From Candidatus Hydrogenedentes bacterium ADurb.Bin170 (GTDB lineage Bacteria; Hydrogenedentota; Hydrogenedentia; Hydrogenedentales; CAITNO01), in contig MWCY01000017.1 of assembly GCA_002070275.1 (NCBI GenBank), positions 1 through 60,991 on the forward strand: a DNA stretch of 60,991 bases. The letters are read 5' to 3'. A program made the position numbers and the translations under genes. Below, piece after piece: positions 985 to 58,277 of the stretch (position 1 is its first letter; every line of letters starts with the position of its first letter). The notes under the pieces are model-generated. The model worked only from the letters and a program-made list of their open reading frames with translations. It was not told the DNA's origin and did no database searches.

Positions 985-1812
985 TTAAGAGGTAGAACAG
1001 ATATCAACCCATTGTACCGACATTAAGCTGGTTCCCCAAAACTTTTCGCCAGTAGACCGGAAGGCCTCAGGAGAATCGGTCACCAGAAACAGAGGTTGTG
1101 TCACTTCTTTTTCTTTATTAAACAGAAAATTTTTATCCAGCGACTCCACAACATCTTTCGCTGTTTCTTCCGCACTGTCAACAAGCATTACATCCTCGCC
1201 CAAAACAGCCTGTATGGTGTTTTTCAGAAGCGGATAATGAGTACACCCCAGGACCAGGGTGTCAATTTTTTTCTTTTTCAGGTCCTCCAGGTAGTGTCGG
1301 GCGACATGAAAAAGAGCATCCCCCGAAACCCAGCCTTCTTCAGCAAAAGGCACGAAAAGAGGACAAGCCTGACTGTAAACGTCTATGTCGGGGCGTTGTG
1401 CCTTTAAAGTCTTTTCGTAGGAACGGCTGTTAATTACGCCTCTGGTACCAATAACACCGATTATCCCGTTTTTAGTTCGACTCAAAGCAGCAGTTGCTCC
1501 AGGTCTGAGAACCCCCAGAACTGGGATATCCAATTCTTTTTGAAGCGCCTCCAAAGCGAAAGCGGTTGCTGTGTTGCAGGCAATGACCAGCATTTTTATT
1601 TTATATTTTAGGAGCACCGCCGCACAGGAACGGGCATAGCGAAGTACGGTCTCAGGGGCTTTAGATCCGTAAGGCACCCGTGCCGTATCACCAAGATAAA
1701 TGATTTTTTCAAAAGGCAGCAACTCGGAAATTTTCCGGCAAACAGTTAATCCGCCTACTCCAGAGTCAAAAATACCGATAGGTGCGCAGCTGCTAGCATT
1801 CAGATCGTTCAT
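985..1812 (-). CDS. murI: Glutamate racemase
   Basis: Cytoplasmic enzyme that interconverts L- and D-glutamate and supplies D-Glu for peptidoglycan stem peptides. The 275-residue length is normal. The N-terminal FDSGVGG motif (Asp16) and the two catalytic thiols, Cys79 in ACNTATA and Cys190 in GCTHYP, are all present, which separates it from aspartate racemases of other subgroups. The start lies 2 bases after the stop of the GerMN gene, so translation is probably coupled. It sits in a run of wall-related genes (degenerate amidase, GerMN protein, murI), which fits its role. Nothing looks unusual. Confidence 0.96.
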   Translation of the reverse strand: MNDLNASSCAPIGIFDSGVGGLTVCRKISELLPFEKIIYLGDTARVPYGSKAPETVLRYARSCAAVLLKYKIKMLVIACNTATAFALEALQKELDIPVLGVLRPGATAALSRTKNGIIGVIGTRGVINSRSYEKTLKAQRPDIDVYSQACPLFVPFAEEGWVSGDALFHVARHYLEDLKKKKIDTLVLGCTHYPLLKNTIQAVLGEDVMLVDSAEETAKDVVESLDKNFLFNKEKEVTQPLFLVTDSPEAFRSTGEKFWGTSLMSVQWVDICSTS

Positions 1813-1814
1813 TA

Positions 1815-2474
1815 TCAGGATTCTGTCATTATCCAGTTAGGCGCCGGGTAGAGCGGGTAAGATAAATCAAAATTCAGAGGAAAAGTCTCCTGCGGAGCCA
1901 TGCCGTCAAAAAGAAAACGGACAGCTGTCACTTTTTTTGAATCAGCCCCGAGCAATGCTTCATGAGTCATCGTGTTCACAATCCCGAAAAACATCATAGT
2001 CTCCGTTTCGATGCTTCTAGGAACTGTTTGCAGAAAAATAATTTCGGAAGAAATATCTAAAATGAGTTCACCATCATCTTTCAGGTAGACCCCGCGAACA
2101 CGGGTGTCGGAAGGGATGTTAGGTAAAGAGTGCTGGCCGTCAGGACCTGAAATCATCTTGAGCAAAGCTGACCTGCAATTTTCAACGGTTGTTTCGGCAC
2201 TCTCAATCATACATTTTTCCGGGACAAGACCGATGCCGGCCGCCGAGGTGAAAAAAAGGGTGATTTCCTTTTTTTCGGTCAGGACATCGCGTGAAGCAGA
2301 TGACTCCTGCTGTTTAAATTCTTCCGAGTCTTCTTCTGCCAGTTTAAAGGGATTGCGCCCCTCAGTAAGCATATGTCTGGACAGCAGCAGAACAAGAAAG
2401 CATAGAATCAGCGTGGCAAATGCCCACAGAATCAAGCCAAGCTTTTTAAAGATGTGACTGGTAGAAAACTGCAT
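1815..2474 (-). CDS. GerMN-domain membrane-anchored protein
   Basis: A protein of 219 residues with one transmembrane helix at about residues 11-35 and a C-terminal domain (about 65-215) resembling the GerMN/sporulation-germination domain: a beta strand (EITLFFT), a helix with CRSALLKMI and PDG, and a later strand with DGELILDIS. In other bacteria such domains occur in germination protein GerM and in lipoproteins near amidases, and are thought to bind wall or protein partners. There is no sign of sporulation genes here, so a general envelope role is likelier. A GGAAT site precedes the ATG by 6 bases. It lies between the amidase-like gene and murI, with 2 bases to murI. The domain call is moderate; the function is unknown. 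Confidence 0.7.
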   Translation of the reverse strand: MQFSTSHIFKKLGLILWAFATLILCFLVLLLSRHMLTEGRNPFKLAEEDSEEFKQQESSASRDVLTEKKEITLFFTSAAGIGLVPEKCMIESAETTVENCRSALLKMISGPDGQHSLPNIPSDTRVRGVYLKDDGELILDISSEIIFLQTVPRSIETETMMFFGIVNTMTHEALLGADSKKVTAVRFLFDGMAPQETFPLNFDLSYPLYPAPNWIMTES

Positions 2475-2511
2475 TGTGTATTCCGATTTATAAGATTAAG
2501 GCACGGTTCTT

Positions 2512-3738
2512 TTACCGGAGGCTTTCGGCAAGCGCCCAGGCGATTCCAGAAGATATACGCGCGATTTCCTCAGGATTCTTCAACAGGTGCAATTTTTCCG
2601 GATCATTCAAACATCCTGTCCCGATTAAAATAACCGGTATTTTGCTTTCCCTTTGTAAAAGCAAAGGCGCCTGATGCACAAAAACTTTTTCCCAAGTGTT
2701 TGTTTTATTTAAGTTGCTTTGAAGCCTGATGCCAAATTTTGCCGCCTTTTCAGCGCATTCTTGCCGGGTAAGTTCACTTTTATTTTCTTTTTTTGCATCT
2801 TCTTTTTTCACGTCACTAAAGGGCGGCTGATCTGTCCAAATTGAAATAGAGGATACAGGGATGTTTGGAGAATAATTACTCTCCAGCGACACGAAAAAAG
2901 CACCTCCGGCTTTTTCAGCTGCCGAGACCCGTTTGCCGGGAGAGAGAGCAACATCTGCTTCTCTGGTGAGAACTACAGTTAAGGACGTTTTTTCTTCAAG
3001 AACAGCTTTGATTGCGCCAGCGAGCTGCAAAAGAATCTCTTTTTCTTTAAATTCCTCTGCAATAACAATACCGGCATCCTGTCCGCCGTGGGCTGCATCG
3101 ATCACTAGGCAACCTTTAATATTTTTCATACCTGAAAAATCGCCTGCTGTTGCATCAGAGGGCAGGCTTTCTTCGGAGTCTTCTTCCTGCTCGTTCTTTT
3201 CAGGTTCACTTGAGCCTTCATCTGACGCAGTTTCCGTGGAAACAGAAGCAGGTTGCGGAAGATCGGGTACTGATTCCAAAAGGAGTGACTCGTCGAGATC
3301 CATTACTTCAAGGTCTTTATCGGCCCCGGGTTTCATCTCTTCCGCTTTAATCTGTATTCCAAAAGCGTTGTGAAAAAAAAGTTCGGTATCGGTTACAGCA
3401 ATGCTGAGTGCGTTATTTAATAATGTACAGGGAACAGATAAAGAAAAACTTTGATTTTCTAAAGCTACCTCACGGTGGTTTGTGATTAGCGTCGCTGTCT
3501 TTCCGTTCAGGCTCGCCTCTATCTGGTCAGTCATATTTACGACCAGCCCGCCCAATTCTGTGATAAGGGTTTCCAGATTAATGTAATTTCTGTTTTCATG
3601 CACCAGAAAGGGCATGGGAACGGTTTTTATTGCGTTGTTCAGTTCAGCTGTAAAAAGGCGCCCTTCTTCTGCCTGGACAGGCACCGGCAGAGGACTAATT
3701 GCGAGAAGAAATAAAAACAGCCAGAGAGAGCAACGCAT
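2512..3738 (-). CDS. Secreted amidase_3-fold protein with lost catalytic residues (probable pseudo-amidase)
   Basis: A signal peptide (residues 1-23, cut near VQA) leads to a copper-amine-oxidase-N-like stalk domain (about 28-130), an acidic Ser/Glu/Asp-rich linker (about 135-205) and an N-acetylmuramoyl-L-alanine amidase (AmiC/CwlM, amidase_3) fold (about 208-405). The first zinc ligand (His217 in DAAHGG) and the Glu ligand (Glu232 in KEKE) are kept. The usual histidine of SIHAN is Glu286 here (SLESN), and the catalytic Glu of the usual VEMGFLSN is Gly373 (LIGTGCLND). Known active members need both, so hydrolysis is unlikely, and a wall-binding or regulatory role is inferred. It has its own predicted promoter at 3844-3872 and starts the GerMN-murI gene group. 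Confidence 0.8.
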   Translation of the reverse strand: MRCSLWLFLFLLAISPLPVPVQAEEGRLFTAELNNAIKTVPMPFLVHENRNYINLETLITELGGLVVNMTDQIEASLNGKTATLITNHREVALENQSFSLSVPCTLLNNALSIAVTDTELFFHNAFGIQIKAEEMKPGADKDLEVMDLDESLLLESVPDLPQPASVSTETASDEGSSEPEKNEQEEDSEESLPSDATAGDFSGMKNIKGCLVIDAAHGGQDAGIVIAEEFKEKEILLQLAGAIKAVLEEKTSLTVVLTREADVALSPGKRVSAAEKAGGAFFVSLESNYSPNIPVSSISIWTDQPPFSDVKKEDAKKENKSELTRQECAEKAAKFGIRLQSNLNKTNTWEKVFVHQAPLLLQRESKIPVILIGTGCLNDPEKLHLLKNPEEIARISSGIAWALAESLR

Positions 3739-3843
3739 ATAAACTTAATTTCCTTTGAGGAAGACAAGAGAAAAAAGAACCTGCAAACTGCTTTGGCACG
3801 GTACATTCTGAAAAAGAAAACGACATTAGCGCATACAACAGGA

Positions 3844-3872
3844 ATTCTACCGGATTGCCTGATTTCAATCAA
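3844..3872 (-). promoter_or_regulatory. Predicted sigma70-type promoter for the amidase-like gene
   Basis: Read on the minus strand, a TTGATT -35 box (3867-3872) is followed by a 17-base spacer and a TAGAAT -10 box (3844-3849). This lies about 105 bases before the amidase-like ATG at 3738, in the 211-base gap after holA. A weak A/T-rich inverted repeat with a T run sits near 3882-3906 and could end holA transcription. The rest of the gap shows nothing else I recognise. Confidence 0.4.
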
Positions 3873-3949
3873 ATTACAGAGAAAAAAAGACTAATTTTTA
3901 GTTAGTTTTCACAGAAATTCTGAATGCCCCGGCAAAAGGAAAGCTCTCT

Positions 3950-4987
3950 TCATCGGGCTGGCGCTGCACGTCCTCTGGAAGCAGCAAGTTTAATGATCAT
4001 GGTTTCCAGGAGCAGCGTTTTGTCGGCACCGCTGTTTCTGAATTGAAAATTAGTTCTGGTGCAGAGTTGCAGAGCATTCTGCATTTTAGTCACATCCCAT
4101 TTTTTTGCCAAGGGCAGCACTTTCTTTTCCACAAAGGGCTTGTTTAAACTGACCTTTGTGCCGGGATGGGCTTTATAGGCACTTTCCAGAAGCCAATTGA
4201 TCATTCCGAGAATCTCTTCATGAGATTTATTAATTGCCAGCAATTCATGAAGATTTTCGAGAGCTTTTCCAGTATCAGAAGCCGCAATGGCGTCGGTAAG
4301 TGCCCACACAGTGGTTTCGGCAACATCGGCACAGGCCGCCAGCACATGCTGCTCGTTGAGTTTGGTTTCCTGTTCTGCGAAGGAACAAAGGAGATTAATG
4401 GCATTTGCCATATCACTCATGCTATTCCCCACCCGCTCAATCATAAGAGCAAGGGCGCCGCTGCTGATGGAATAGCCTTTTTGCTTCAGCTGCTCCTTAA
4501 TCCATTGCCCGTATACACGGTCTTCCATTTGAGGACATTCAACCACAAGCCCTTTTTCTTCGCAGAGTTTATAGAAGCGCCGGCTCCTGTTGGCCTCGGA
4601 GGCTAAGAGAATTAAGAGGCAGAAATCAGGCGGATCGCTCAGGCATTCCAATAAAGGAATAACAGGGCTTTTTTTATCGGAAGAAAGTGCAAAAAAAAGT
4701 TCTGCGTGACGCACAACAATCACTTTTCTTTCTACGAGAAAAGGGAGCGTCAAGACTTCAGAGGCGACATCGCCAGGGGAAGACTCCCCTGCCTGAAGCG
4801 TAGTGAGCGCCAGATCTTTTTGATCTTCGGGCACATACATCTGCAATAAATCATGAAGCGCTGCTTCCGCAAGCCACGGTTCAAAATCAGCCTTGCCAAA
4901 AGGGGCTTTGCCGGAAGTGAGCAGAATAATGGAGGGAGGCTTGTGCTTGTCTAATTTACTTACGAGATCGCCAACGTTGATAATCAT
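3950..4987 (-). CDS. holA: DNA polymerase III subunit delta
   Basis: Clamp-loader subunit that opens the beta sliding clamp. The 345 residues match the family length. The N-terminal domain begins with strand-forming ILLTSG, followed by the typical FLVERKVIVVRHAE stretch (about 83-96) and a C-terminal collar with the YKAHPG region. As expected for delta, there is no Walker A motif. The ATG directly follows the lptE stop (TAAATG), so the two are translationally coupled; bamD, lptE and holA form one run. An lptE-holA pairing is seen in many Gram-negative genomes (established knowledge) and supports both calls. Confidence 0.88.
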   Translation of the reverse strand: MIINVGDLVSKLDKHKPPSIILLTSGKAPFGKADFEPWLAEAALHDLLQMYVPEDQKDLALTTLQAGESSPGDVASEVLTLPFLVERKVIVVRHAELFFALSSDKKSPVIPLLECLSDPPDFCLLILLASEANRSRRFYKLCEEKGLVVECPQMEDRVYGQWIKEQLKQKGYSISSGALALMIERVGNSMSDMANAINLLCSFAEQETKLNEQHVLAACADVAETTVWALTDAIAASDTGKALENLHELLAINKSHEEILGMINWLLESAYKAHPGTKVSLNKPFVEKKVLPLAKKWDVTKMQNALQLCTRTNFQFRNSGADKTLLLETMIIKLAASRGRAAPAR

Positions 4988-49472: not shown

Positions 49473-51620
49473 ATGACTGAATCACATCCACCTATGCTGA
49501 AAACCAAAAGAGGCTGCATGGGCATTTTTATTGCTCTGCTTCTAGTGGTCGGTGCAGCCTGGGGCGCAGGGCTAGCCCTGTTTTCCTGGATTATCGGCGA
49601 CGCACAGCATGACGTGTCAGAGGCCCTTGCTAATTTTCGTCCGAAGGTGGGCACCAAAGTCTACAGTTATGACGGTCAGATCATCGGCGAGTTTTCCATC
49701 GAAGAGCGCTCTTTAGTCCGTTTATCTGATATTCCTCTTCATACGCAAAAAGCCGTTCTGGCGACGGAAGATTCTCTTTTCTTCGAGCACAAAGGCGTTC
49801 GCCCGGATGCCATTATCAGCAGCATTTTGTATGGACTTCAGCGCGGCACCAGCCCTCGCGGCGGCAGTACTATCACGCAGCAGGTCGTCCGGAACGTAGA
49901 AGATTTAAAAGTCGGACAGGAACGTACGTACCAGCGGAAGTTACGCGAAGCCTTGACTGCGCTTCAGATTGAACGGAATTTTACAAAAGATGAAATCCTT
50001 GAATTATATCTGAACCAAATTTTCCTGGGCGGGAGTGCCCATGGTATAGAAGCTGCATCCATGCAGTATTTCGGGAAAAGCTGTTCCTTTTTAACCATCG
50101 CTGAATCCGCCACTTTGGCAGGATTGATCCGCTCACCGAACCGGAATTCACCCTTCAAAAATCCTGACAATGCCCTGCAGCGTCGTAATGTCGTTCTCAA
50201 GCAAATGTTTGAGAATAAGTTTATTTCGAAGGAAGAGTACGACCAGGCTATGCAGGAAAATCTTCTTGCCTCTCTGGTTCAGCCTACTGTCAACAGGGAA
50301 TCGATTGATTACTCGGTTCAGGGAAACTATCGTGCTCCCTATTTTGTGGAAGAAATAAGAAACTTTGTTTTGCAGCGCTATGAAAAACAGGAAGTCTTCG
50401 AAGAAGGCTTCGAGATTTATACCACTATAGACATGCGTATTCAGAGTATAGCGGAAGAAACCCTTCTTAGCGCATTGGACGAGTTTGACCGTAAAATGAA
50501 CAAAGGCCGTTCTCCTGAAGATGAAAACTATACGGCAGTTTCTGGTGCTCTTGTTTGTCTTGATAATCGCGCGCCTTACAGGGGGCAAGTACGCGCTATG
50601 GTCGGCGGTCGCGATTTTGTGCGCGAAAAATTTAATACTGTCACGCAAGCCAAAAGACCGCCTGGATCGAGCATCAAGCCTTTTATCTGGGCTGCTGCTA
50701 TCGCCTCGGGCATGACCCCATCGACGATCATTGTTGATGAGCCTTTCGTTCGCCGGGCCCCCAATGGAAAAATATGGGCACCTAAAAATTTCGGCGGAGG
50801 CTTCAGCGGACCTGTGCCTCTGCGCTATGCCCTTGAACGCTCCATCAATATTGTTTCCATAAAACTTGTCGAACGAATAGGTCTGCCTCTGATTCAGTCC
50901 TATCTTGAGCGGTGCGGTATTCCGACAGACGTACAAAATCTAACTGTGGGTCTGGGTTCCGGTGGCGTATCTCCCCTCAGCCATGCGGTTGCCTATTCCG
51001 TTTTTGCCAATGGCGGCATGCGCTATGATCCTGTACTTGTCACTGAGATTTTCGACCGTGACGGAATGCAACGTTACAATTATAGAGATTTTTCCCGGGC
51101 TGAACAGGCTTTGGATCCGAAAGTTGCCTATGTAAGCCTCTCCATGCTGGAAGGCGTCTGCAAACCAGCAGCCGATTATGGTTACTACCCTACGGCGTGG
51201 CGCGCTCATGTGCTGAACCGTCCCTGTGGCGGAAAGACGGGAACCACCAATGACAGCCGCGATGCCTGGTTTTGCGGTTTTACGCCGGAGTTCACAGCGG
51301 TTGTGTGGGTTGGCTATCGGGACAATCGCTCTCTTGGACACGGTGCAGATTATACGGGAGGCCGCCTTGCCTGTCCCATATGGGTCAGTTTTATGGAGCA
51401 GGTGCATGAAGGGCTTGGCGTCGAAGATTTTAAAGTGCCGCCGGGCATTGAGTTCTTCGATATTGACAGAAAAAGCGGTACCCGTGGAGGGAAATACAAA
51501 GAAGCTTATGTGCAAGGCACTGCCCCGCCACTCTATACTCCGCCTCCGCCACCTGCCGAAGACCAGGGTATCATGCCCGAAGAGGCGGAAGAAGATATAC
51601 CCCTTTTGCTGGCGCTATAG
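49473..51620 (+). CDS. Bifunctional penicillin-binding protein 1 (transglycosylase/transpeptidase)
   Basis: Class A PBP that polymerises and cross-links peptidoglycan. A membrane anchor (residues 16-41) leads to a GT51 glycosyltransferase domain (about 65-240, catalytic Glu99 in ATEDSLFFEH, GGSTITQQ) and a transpeptidase domain with Ser399-x-x-Lys402 (PPGSSIK), Ser457-Ile-Asn459 and Lys588-Thr-Gly-Thr591. All catalytic motifs are intact. The tail is proline-rich and acidic (PPPPPAED). 715 residues fit PBP1A/PbpC size. The first ATG lacks a clear ribosome site; a second in-frame ATG follows 7 codons later. Confidence 0.96.
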   Translation: MTESHPPMLKTKRGCMGIFIALLLVVGAAWGAGLALFSWIIGDAQHDVSEALANFRPKVGTKVYSYDGQIIGEFSIEERSLVRLSDIPLHTQKAVLATEDSLFFEHKGVRPDAIISSILYGLQRGTSPRGGSTITQQVVRNVEDLKVGQERTYQRKLREALTALQIERNFTKDEILELYLNQIFLGGSAHGIEAASMQYFGKSCSFLTIAESATLAGLIRSPNRNSPFKNPDNALQRRNVVLKQMFENKFISKEEYDQAMQENLLASLVQPTVNRESIDYSVQGNYRAPYFVEEIRNFVLQRYEKQEVFEEGFEIYTTIDMRIQSIAEETLLSALDEFDRKMNKGRSPEDENYTAVSGALVCLDNRAPYRGQVRAMVGGRDFVREKFNTVTQAKRPPGSSIKPFIWAAAIASGMTPSTIIVDEPFVRRAPNGKIWAPKNFGGGFSGPVPLRYALERSINIVSIKLVERIGLPLIQSYLERCGIPTDVQNLTVGLGSGGVSPLSHAVAYSVFANGGMRYDPVLVTEIFDRDGMQRYNYRDFSRAEQALDPKVAYVSLSMLEGVCKPAADYGYYPTAWRAHVLNRPCGGKTGTTNDSRDAWFCGFTPEFTAVVWVGYRDNRSLGHGADYTGGRLACPIWVSFMEQVHEGLGVEDFKVPPGIEFFDIDRKSGTRGGKYKEAYVQGTAPPLYTPPPPPAEDQGIMPEEAEEDIPLLLAL

Positions 51621-54789: not shown

Positions 54790-56460
54790 TCAGCTTTCTT
54801 TATAAACAGCTTCCTGACATTCCTGCATCAATGTTTCAGCCTTTTCAATAAGGCGCAAGGCATCCCTAATCAGCGCTCTTTCTCTTTCCAACAGAGAACT
54901 TTGCTCTGTACTGTGCATTTCTATTGCTTTCCGTACATCCTTAAGCATTTTTTTTGAGAAAGAAGCAATAACCCAGTTGAAAATTTTCAGGACAAAAAAA
55001 ACAACGAAGACAAACAGCGCGGTAAGATGCAGAAGGGCACTCACAGAAAGTAATTGCTGGCTATAAAATGATTTGATAATAAATAGAATGGAAAGCAGAA
55101 TTGTCATCCACGGAAGACTATCCAAAGCGTACTTAACATATTTCGAAGAGAATAATTTACTGCATTTTATTAAGTTATCCTGCGCCTTTTGAGCGAAGAG
55201 CCTGCTAATTTCTTTAAAATATTCTTTATAACCCACTCGCGCTTCTTCCGACTGTCTGGTTGAAAATCCGGCAAGCTTCATTTGATAGTCCGTTTTTCTT
55301 TGCATGGCAGCCAGAAATTTTTTTAAGGTGTCTGGAAGGGTTGTTTCTGATTCTTTAATTTCATTAATCAGTTTTTGAAGACTGCCTGCATCAGAAGGTG
55401 CGTTCTGAAGAATCTCCGGCTTAAATAAATGGGACAAAAGATCCGGTAAAGAAGTCAGATAATAGCGCCACTTGAAGACAGTGCCGATAATTCCTGTACC
55501 GCTTCGGGCAATTTCCTGAGTTAACGCTGTCTCCCAGTTTTCTTCACAGGAAAAAACTTTTTCTATAAAATATCCGAGAAACCGTTTTTTAATTTCCTGC
55601 TCGACGGAAAGAATTGCCTTTTCCTGCTTCAAAAGACTTTCTTTTTCTTTTGATAGAGCGACATAAAGCCTTTGAGCGCAGGTATTCAGCAGTTCAAACA
55701 AATTAGCTTCTTTTATTTTTCTGTTGTATTCCAAATCTAAAGTTTCTGCCAGAAAGTTCTTAAGCACTGAAAATTCATACTCATCAGAAACAGGCTCCGC
55801 CCGGCCCGCCACTATTCTGTTCCAGGCGTTAAGAGCATTTACCGGGAAATAGTGGCGGACAGAAAATCCTTCCTGTTCCATATAGCGCTGCCAGTCCTTC
55901 CTGACAGCAGGATCATCTCTATCCACCTGCGTCTGCACACAGACAATTTCTCTTTTGTTCTTCAGCGGCGCAAGGATACGCCGCGTTTTGTCAACAAGAT
56001 ATTTCTGTGCATCAGCGCATAGTAGTATAAGATCACACTGTCTCAGTACCTCCAGTGCTGTTTCACAGTGGCGGGCATTCGTACTGTCCCAGTCCGGCGT
56101 ATCAATAAGCACAATATTTTTCAGCGGAGAGCCCGGTACATAAGTGATACCCGGCAAGCAGTCAAGTTTAGGAATGTATCCGTGCGGATGGTAGACAGTC
56201 GGTGTTGATGTATGCGGGCGAATCGGCGACACTTCTGCAATTTCTGCCCCCGCCAGCGCATTGAGCAATGTGGATTTTCCTACACCGGTTCCCCCTACAA
56301 TTGCAACAATAAGCGGAGAATTTACGCCCTGAAGTCTCGTCTTTATATCTTCTATTGCTATACAAAGGTTCTCTTTTTCCTGAAGTAATCTTGTCCAGGA
56401 ACCAGTGTAAGCAGCAAAGCTCTCAAGCGTATTTAAAAGAGCGTCATATTCTTTTGGCAC
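54790..56460 (-). CDS. Dynamin-like membrane GTPase, second of a tandem pair
   Basis: A 556-residue GTPase: G1 GGTGVGKST (56-64), possible switch-I threonines at 84-86, G3 DTPDWDS (120-126) and G4 TQVD (177-180), followed by long helices and coiled-coil segments (about 255-430), a hydrophobic hairpin (about 450-500) and a basic amphipathic tail. This is the layout of bacterial dynamin-like and YfjP-type membrane GTPases, which remodel membranes. The GTG start overlaps the first GTPase gene by 28 bases, with AGGGA just before it. The shared operon includes an ABC-2 exporter. Exact family placement and cargo are unknown. Confidence 0.82.
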   Translation of the reverse strand: MPKEYDALLNTLESFAAYTGSWTRLLQEKENLCIAIEDIKTRLQGVNSPLIVAIVGGTGVGKSTLLNALAGAEIAEVSPIRPHTSTPTVYHPHGYIPKLDCLPGITYVPGSPLKNIVLIDTPDWDSTNARHCETALEVLRQCDLILLCADAQKYLVDKTRRILAPLKNKREIVCVQTQVDRDDPAVRKDWQRYMEQEGFSVRHYFPVNALNAWNRIVAGRAEPVSDEYEFSVLKNFLAETLDLEYNRKIKEANLFELLNTCAQRLYVALSKEKESLLKQEKAILSVEQEIKKRFLGYFIEKVFSCEENWETALTQEIARSGTGIIGTVFKWRYYLTSLPDLLSHLFKPEILQNAPSDAGSLQKLINEIKESETTLPDTLKKFLAAMQRKTDYQMKLAGFSTRQSEEARVGYKEYFKEISRLFAQKAQDNLIKCSKLFSSKYVKYALDSLPWMTILLSILFIIKSFYSQQLLSVSALLHLTALFVFVVFFVLKIFNWVIASFSKKMLKDVRKAIEMHSTEQSSLLERERALIRDALRLIEKAETLMQECQEAVYKES

Positions 56461-58277
56461 TTTTCCCTGCAGCTCCCAAGTTGTTTTATATGCTCCTCAT
56501 CAAAAAGAGCCAGGGCGCTTTCAACCGCTCCTACTATCGGTTTAGCAACGACTCTATACAATTCCTCCTTTAATCGTTCTTTTTGCCGGTGGTACGCCGG
56601 GCTTAAAAAAATTCTTATTTGCTTTTCCAGGCTACGCTCAATTATGCGGCGCACATGCAGGAGCATATAAAAAACAGGAAGAATGCAAATTATTGGGTAA
56701 ATTGCCGACAGCCCTTTGGATAAAAGAAGTAACAGAAAGATATAAGGCGCAAGGACAAAAGTGGCATCTATCCACTGCAGTGCTGTTATTTTTCCTGATT
56801 GAATCGGCCATCCCTCCTGAAGCCCGGTGCCGAGAAGTGTATCTTCGGGAACAAGTCCTTCGGCATCTTTTTCCAGCGTTTTACGAATTACCTCAACATT
56901 TGCTGAATTGTCCCGGGGTTCTTTAAGCAAGAAAAAAGAGGTGTCCTTCGTCGCCTCATTCAGTTTTTTACGAAACCAGTTGGAATAGATCAGAACACTG
57001 TCACGAATGGCGTCCTGCGCTCTGGCAGCATTTTCTTTGGCACTATCCACCTGAAACTGCTTCTTATTTTTGCCCTGGCTGATCTGTACGTCGTCTTTAA
57101 ATATAAAATTTTTCAGCGGCAAATAAAGAGGAGACAGAAGAGCCAAAAGAAAAGACATTTTTTGAACAATAACGCTTCTGCTTGTTTGAATGCACTGGCG
57201 TATGCCTGTTTTTATATTGCTCCGGCGTTCAGGTGAAAATACCGCAGCAGCTTTTTCTGCCTCTTCCAGGCATTCCGCATTAAAAGCTCTGATCTGTGCT
57301 TCCGCATTTTTGCATCGTTCCAGAAAAGATGCGGTTTGCTCTAAAAAATATTCAAGCGACGCTTTGTAGACCTGTATTTTTACGGTGCCCATATCCATCC
57401 GCTTCAAATAATCAAGCAACGATATTTGGTTTTCCAGGTCCATGATGGGGAGATCAGGCAAGGACTCGAGGGAGTAATCTTTGGGCACTGTAAAAGCGCG
57501 TTCTGCGGTAAACCCAATTGCTCCCATAAACTGATTCAGCTGCGCTTTTGTTATGTCCGGAGTATGGGAGGGCTCCACTCTGTTCATCAGCGGAACAATG
57601 ATGCGTCCCGATTGGTGTGCGATACGGAAAAAAGCTACATTTTTTTCATCGTTATATTTTTGAGGGGTAAGGACGGCAATCATTACATCGCCAGCTGCCC
57701 GAATCTTTTCTGCTATAGACCAGTTTTTTTCAATAACAGAGTCTACGTCCGGAGTATCCATGAGAGCCATGGAAAAAGGCAGATTTTCAGCTGACGCCAC
57801 ATAGAGAAGATCTTCTTTTTCCTGCGGGTTTTCACTTTGCCCCGGAAAAGCCTGATTCCGTGCGTGAAAATCTACAAGAATCTTATTGTTGATGGCATCA
57901 GGAAGCCTTTCTGGTGCTACTGCAAGAACTGGCGCTTTTGTCGCAGCCGCGGTACTTCTAACTTCACTGAGTTTTTTTTGTAGAGTCAGATTAAAAAGTG
58001 TACTTTTTCCGCTGTTAGTTCCCCCTGCAAATACAACAATAAGACAGGCTTTTTCTGAAATCTGCGTGAGAAGTTTTTGAGAGAGAAGCCTTCGCCATTC
58101 TTCAGTACCATCCAGAAGAAGGTCTTTCAGCTCCGCCTGGCCATCCAGCGCTTTTAAAAAGGCATTAAAATAATGCTCAAAGTCTGCCAGTGCGGTTTGA
58201 ATAGAATCTGCAGCGCTGTTTTCTTCCCCTGATAACGCATAAAATTGGCTCGTATCCGGTTCCCACTTCCCACTCAC
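56433..58277 (-). CDS. Dynamin-like membrane GTPase, first of a tandem pair
   Basis: A 614-residue protein with G1 GGTNSGKST (85-93), G3 DTPDVDS (174-180) and an unusual G4, NRVE (232-235) in place of N/TKxD. A helical middle part has a hydrophobic patch at 373-393, then a two-helix membrane hairpin (about 505-542) and a charged tail. The GTG start has GGAAG upstream and lies 29 bases after the ABC-2 permease gene. It overlaps the next GTPase by 28 bases. The altered G4 may change nucleotide specificity. Paired GTPases of this kind usually act as a hetero-oligomer, inferred here from the overlap. Confidence 0.82.
   Translation of the reverse strand: MSGKWEPDTSQFYALSGEENSAADSIQTALADFEHYFNAFLKALDGQAELKDLLLDGTEEWRRLLSQKLLTQISEKACLIVVFAGGTNSGKSTLFNLTLQKKLSEVRSTAAATKAPVLAVAPERLPDAINNKILVDFHARNQAFPGQSENPQEKEDLLYVASAENLPFSMALMDTPDVDSVIEKNWSIAEKIRAAGDVMIAVLTPQKYNDEKNVAFFRIAHQSGRIIVPLMNRVEPSHTPDITKAQLNQFMGAIGFTAERAFTVPKDYSLESLPDLPIMDLENQISLLDYLKRMDMGTVKIQVYKASLEYFLEQTASFLERCKNAEAQIRAFNAECLEEAEKAAAVFSPERRSNIKTGIRQCIQTSRSVIVQKMSFLLALLSPLYLPLKNFIFKDDVQISQGKNKKQFQVDSAKENAARAQDAIRDSVLIYSNWFRKKLNEATKDTSFFLLKEPRDNSANVEVIRKTLEKDAEGLVPEDTLLGTGLQEGWPIQSGKITALQWIDATFVLAPYIFLLLLLSKGLSAIYPIICILPVFYMLLHVRRIIERSLEKQIRIFLSPAYHRQKERLKEELYRVVAKPIVGAVESALALFDEEHIKQLGSCREKCQKNMTLF

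Follow-up and report, generated by a model that had tools for sequence, protein, structure and literature searches.

The window, by which we mean the whole 60,991-nucleotide stretch analysed here, encodes a 408-residue protein that is a member of the Amidase_3 family by homology and fold and whose active-site residues, as read from the sequence, do not add up to a working amidase. The protein is very probably catalytically inactive and, if so, has a fair likelihood of being a pseudo-amidase that has kept a structural role. The best-supported reading is that of a pseudo-amidase, as proposed in the first-pass annotation of this DNA: the protein retains its fold but has lost two of its four active-site residues, and the genome encodes an intact paralog elsewhere. 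Taken together, the indications incline us slightly towards a secreted pseudo-amidase that is maintained as a structural partner of the GerMN protein encoded next to it (Table 1).

Table 1. Positions in the window of the candidate pseudo-amidase gene, its parts and its neighbours
Feature	Position	Strand	Basis
Candidate pseudo-amidase gene, 408 aa	2512..3738	minus	ORF, Pfam scan, alignments
Apparent signal peptide, residues ~1-23	3670..3738	minus	read by eye
N-terminal domain resembling PF07833 Cu_amine_oxidN1, residues 38-134	3337..3627	minus	sub-threshold Pfam match
Amidase_3 region modelled, residues 206-408	2515..3123	minus	Pfam and structure prediction
Ala216 (Gly in 74/74 intact sequences of the order and in 73/73 controls)	3091..3093	minus	alignment
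His217, codon CAC, first zinc ligand, kept	3088-3090	minus	alignment
Glu232, codon GAA, second zinc ligand, kept	3043-3045	minus	alignment
Glu286, codon GAG, replaces the third zinc ligand His; common to G001	2881-2883	minus	alignment
Gly373, codon GGG, replaces the catalytic Glu; window species only	2620-2622	minus	alignment
Protein with a GerMN domain (PF10646 Germane), conserved as the downstream neighbour	1815..2474	minus	Pfam, gene order
murI (glutamate racemase), third in the conserved gene order	985..1812	minus	Pfam, gene order
holA, upstream neighbour fixing orthology	3950..4987	minus	Pfam, gene order

Fold, active site and other wall enzymes

Four parts can be distinguished in the protein: an apparent signal peptide, an N-terminal domain resembling PF07833, an acidic linker and the Amidase_3 domain. 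From the putative signal peptide, which was recognised by eye, we infer that the protein is exported. The match of the N-terminal domain to PF07833 stays below the Pfam cut-off (E 0.0011, 19.4 bits against 24.2), the same model is matched at E <=0.01 in 5 of the 46 orthologs (out of 66) that the scan covered, and the domain reached a pLDDT of 34.9 when modelled alone without an alignment. No Pfam match to an AMIN domain was found in the 408-residue protein. The amidase fold claimed in the first-pass annotation is confirmed by the match of residues 212-404 to PF01520 (89.3 bits against a cut-off of 27, E 4e-25) and by a confident AlphaFold2 model of residues 206-408 (mean pLDDT 89.8, pTM 0.87), computed from an alignment of the window domain with 60 other amidases, 59 of them viral and one from Aquimarina. 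The top PDB matches of the model are all Amidase_3 structures (5emi, E 6.8e-14; 1jwq, E 7.2e-14); it superimposes on 4rn7 with a Z score of 25.8 (2.1 A over 181 residues), on 5emi and 1jwq with 25.1 each and on 7rag, the structure of CwlD with GerS, with 23.2 (1.9 A over 177 residues).

With residues counted from the ATG of the open reading frame, alignments with relatives place Glu286 on the zinc-binding His of the SIH/SLH motif and Gly373 on the catalytic Glu, and the phmmer alignment to 3ne8 keeps the same register over residues 210-404. Codons, ortholog alignments and the 3ne8 register thus bear out the original assignment, in which His217 and Glu232 are present and Glu286 and Gly373 are substitutions. 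A shifted alignment that would give back His and Glu from nearby residues, which had been named as the observation that could overturn this assignment, was looked for and can be ruled out, as both sites lie in ungapped alignment and the motifs VSLxSN and IPVILIxTG that flank them contain no gaps either. The nearest histidine is H355, whose column holds Lys in 63 of the 73 control amidases and is mixed among the order's 74 intact sequences (most commonly Arg in 33, His in 16, Leu in 14 and Tyr in 4); since intact enzymes carry Lys or a mixture of residues at this position, H355 does not appear by alignment to be a displaced zinc ligand. Near position 373, three more residues that are invariant in the family are altered in the window (Y376C, S378N and N379D). 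According to the passages of PMC8496864 that deal with its active site, the matching residues of the amidase CwlD are the zinc ligands His49, Glu65 and His133 and the catalytic Glu199; of these, His49, Glu65 and Glu199 were mutated there to disrupt function.

The search for an active paralog that had been recommended along with the first-pass annotation led to a second Amidase_3 protein of 643 residues (G000:C5:66698-67486) with an intact HEHE quartet in the window's assembly, which is 96% complete. Beyond this paralog and the window gene no further Amidase_3 protein was found in the assembly, and no Amidase_2 protein either. The long paralogs examined in the order, one per genome, are HEHE in 22 of 22 cases. 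M23 (LytM) proteins were tried as a correlated loss and discarded as uninformative, for all 17 genomes of the family have them. The three M23 matches in the window's genome, together with a class A penicillin-binding protein encoded at 49473-51620, indicate that the organism probably builds a wall and remodels it. Elsewhere in the window, an open reading frame at 54790-56460 (minus strand) matches dynamin-like and other GTPase models, and a large open reading frame at 56433-58277 (minus strand) overlaps its start.

Stepwise changes among relatives

Among 68 genomes of the order we located 66 orthologs of the short GerMN-linked amidase, and 61 of them carry the quartet HEHE; the other five are single cases of HEQE (G021), HEEE (G001), HEEG (the window), HEHS (G022) and HEH- (G049, where the ortholog ends at the contig end and was scored accordingly). 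All 73 control amidases are HEHE as well (72 of them come from viral contigs and one from Aquimarina, and they were kept from 81 loci after 8 had been dropped for an incomplete or unclear domain); since the pattern used to gather them demanded HGG, tolerating Gly or Ala before the His, these controls are uninformative on the loss of His217. That the window gene is a mis-assigned paralog can be ruled out, as bamD, lptE and holA flank it identically in relatives where contigs reach. The HEQE case comes from a draft assembly of 63% completeness (L030, G021:C145:2514-3107); here the third zinc ligand has changed from His to Gln, and Gly216 and the catalytic Glu are kept.

The genus of the window is represented by two genomes, the window's and G001, which are grouped with a support of 0.997 in the tree of domains and whose Amidase_3 domains are 40% identical. 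A comparison with relatives had been proposed as a check on the substitutions, and its outcome is divided: Glu286 is shared within the genus, Gly373 is confined to the window species. With two genomes in the genus, the fixation of Gly373 is read from one assembly. G001 has Glu286 and Ala216 yet retains the catalytic Glu (codon GAA), which points to stepwise loss. The ancestor would have been an ordinary secreted zinc amidase encoded beside a GerMN protein, as throughout the order. By the aligned sequences, two exchanges would date back to the ancestor of the genus, H286E at the third zinc ligand and G216A at the residue preceding the first zinc His; the catalytic Glu would have been lost later, in the lineage of the window species, where the surrounding loop was remodelled (E373G with the changes at 376, 378 and 379). 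The product would most likely be a dead enzyme that is exported with its fold intact.

A second group of degenerate domains is found in family f5, where tandem Amidase_3 proteins of about 680-810 residues combine a first domain that is HEHE (12 of 12) with a second domain that is degenerate (12 of 12, with quartets such as YGSQ, HASQ, CAAQ and others). The full tandem loci are L067:65-2293, L062, L063, L065, L069 and L206-L212, and fragments are L070, L106 and L213. A lipobox-like start was noted in the one f5 tandem protein that was inspected by eye. Together with two fragments taken as second domains, 14 second domains lack the quartet, and they form one clade. Column 216 holds Ala in 15, Val in 1 and Gly in 2 of the 18 sequences of the order with a changed quartet; Gly216 is gone in both members of the genus and in 14 of 14 quartet-less second domains, and all 147 intact sequences keep it, a pattern that amounts to about two independent events, since 14 of the 18 changed sequences belong to a single clade. 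The presence of Ala216 suggests that the site of G001 is abnormal too, despite its catalytic Glu. As an example of a pseudo-amidase that has been retained, the conserved pairing of an active with a degenerate domain in f5 is arguably stronger than the window gene. We tentatively put forward, as a possibility in which we place limited confidence, that secreted pseudo-amidases arose at least twice in the order, as the GerMN-linked protein of the genus and as the second domains of f5, each time with a change of the Gly before the first zinc His, nearly always to Ala, and that their function is to regulate active amidases or to bind the wall as their partners.

Retention, decay or residual activity

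Is the gene kept for a function, or is it on its way to loss? In the latter case the paralog would have made the amidase dispensable, catalysis would have been lost and the gene would now be drifting, its frame still open because the loss is recent or because the N-terminal part is still needed. The rate of evolution of the protein gives this explanation some weight. The branch of the Amidase_3 domain is twice as long in the window as in G001 (0.90 versus 0.45), whereas the branches of the N-terminal domain (0.42 versus 0.41) and of five neighbour genes taken together (0.28 versus 0.22) are similar. Likewise, of 63 domain columns near-invariant in outgroups 16 are changed in the window only and 4 in G001 only (binomial p 0.012). 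The corresponding counts are 48 and 41 for the neighbours (Fisher p 0.044 against the domain) and, for the N-terminal domain, 1 and 5 (Fisher p 0.0097). With the acceleration in the lineage of the window confined to the amidase domain, slow decay is an alternative to be taken seriously, albeit in our view a rather unlikely one. The same gene is degenerate in G022 and was not found in G029 and G036, which shows that the short amidase can become dispensable in the order. The decaying gene of G022 (L088, G022:C131, family f7) has the quartet HEHS, 2 of 8 near-invariant residues and a terminal branch of 2.66.

These eight residues speak for constraint on the rest of the domain. They occupy the columns (214, 218, 219, 223, 259, 262, 270 and 368) that hold one residue in at least 93% of the 74 intact sequences, excluding the quartet and position 216 and requiring coverage by the alignment of the window, and they are kept in 8 of 8 cases both in the window and in G001. 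The Amidase_3 domain still scores 89 bits in Pfam, and its terminal branch in the window ranks 7th of 66 in the tree of all domains, which is raised but not extreme. Moreover, the change at position 286 is old enough to be shared with a sister whose domain is 40% identical, and the frame is open in both genomes. The first-pass annotation had taken the open frame as an argument against decay. The frame is indeed open, and in a crude, substitution-only simulation of neutral evolution to 67% amino acid identity it stayed free of stops in just 4 of 200 runs; in view of the accelerated domain, however, an open frame alone is not sufficient as an argument against slow decay. The pattern as a whole fits, without proving it, an active site that has been freed from constraint in a fold that would still be under selection.

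We consider it improbable that the protein is a live enzyme with an altered metal site. His217, Glu232 and Glu286 could make up a His-Glu-Glu site that works in the genus, with another residue replacing Glu373 in the window, and G001 would suit this explanation, being HEEE and having 8 of the 41 columns that are invariant in seven relatives altered, compared to 17 in the window. In the window, however, such an enzyme would have to cope with Gly at position 373 and with the three changed residues close by, and in both members of the genus with the loss of the Gly216 that all intact sequences keep. A sequence or assembly error at codon 373 is very improbable indeed: the codon is known from one draft genome and GAG to GGG is a single base, but G001 reads Glu here, a base-calling error would hardly change four conserved positions of one loop, and the loss of the His ligand, seen in two genomes as Glu286, would stand even if codon 373 were wrong.

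GerMN linkage and comparison with known systems

What, then, could a retained pseudo-amidase be doing at the wall? We believe that the answer may lie in its neighbour. The gene order bamD-lptE-holA-amidase-gerMN-murI is conserved among relatives where contigs reach, and the window, with its amidase-GerMN-murI order, belongs to the GerMN-linked short amidase type. In 52 of 58 amidase-bearing genomes the gene directly downstream, on the strand of the amidase, encodes GerMN; of the remaining 6, the pair is split across contigs in 4 and a GerMN match is missing in 2. Neither a short amidase nor a GerMN match was found in G029 (family f7) and G036 (family f10), where the two may have been lost as a pair. 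It is mainly this co-occurrence that leads us to propose GerMN as the partner, the pseudo-amidase presumably holding or completing a GerMN complex at the wall, as the gene order would suggest. It may also occupy amidase substrate sites, the cutting being left to the intact 643-residue paralog. In the window, gaps of 37 bases between the amidase gene and gerMN and of 2 bases between gerMN and murI make a single transcript likely. The gene had also been credited with a promoter of its own, a claim that we could not substantiate: the 211-base gap upstream leaves room for one, but the sole promoter-like site in the region 2400-4100 (3872-3844, minus strand) compares with 1.9 expected by chance, as do two terminator-like sites in the same scan with 2.2 expected.

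The fold of EnvC is that of LytM (M23) and not that of Amidase_3. The window protein resembles EnvC in being a wall hydrolase homologue that has lost catalytic residues, EnvC being described in the relevant part of PMC4946905 as an activator of real amidases. With AmiA, AmiB and AmiC of E. coli and Bartonella (8c2o, 8c0j, 4bin, 3ne8) it shares a periplasmic type of Amidase_3 domain and, with AmiB and AmiC, the possession of an N-terminal non-catalytic domain; these enzymes, however, are active and are switched on by activators such as EnvC, as far as the sections of PMC10268282 on them go, whereas two catalytic positions are replaced in the window. CwlD of Clostridioides difficile likewise has the Amidase_3 fold (7rag), and it needs a small partner protein, GerS, to bind metal. 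Unlike the window protein, CwlD keeps its four active-site residues and is active, and GerS has a LolA-like fold and not a GerMN domain, again by the portions of PMC8496864 concerned with the complex.

The closest likeness in terms of the active site is to CwlM of mycobacteria, a peptidoglycan amidase homologue in which, according to the passages of PMC4946905 devoted to it, the zinc-coordinating residues are not conserved and whose essential role is regulatory and not enzymatic. The window protein has a degenerate zinc site as well. CwlM, however, is described in the same passages as a cytoplasmic protein that lacks a secretion signal and acts on MurA, whereas the window protein carries a putative signal peptide and an N-terminal domain resembling PF07833 and has GerMN as its neighbour. 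A protein of the CwlM type would also be phosphorylated by a Ser/Thr kinase and stimulate MurA. Thus, an amidase homologue turned regulator is already known, and what sets this one apart is the apparent export, the N-terminal domain and the GerMN neighbour; among the papers listed by searches of the open-licence PMC literature, none describes a secreted Amidase_3 pseudoenzyme linked to GerMN in its title or abstract.

Should the window protein have been retained for a role other than catalysis, it would be a secreted, GerMN-linked counterpart of the cytoplasmic CwlM, and the role of the amidase-GerMN gene pair would become testable. G001, which has one of the two active-site changes, offers a natural intermediate for comparison. 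We suggest that a pair persisting without catalysis would mark complex formation or wall binding as the part of its function that is conserved.
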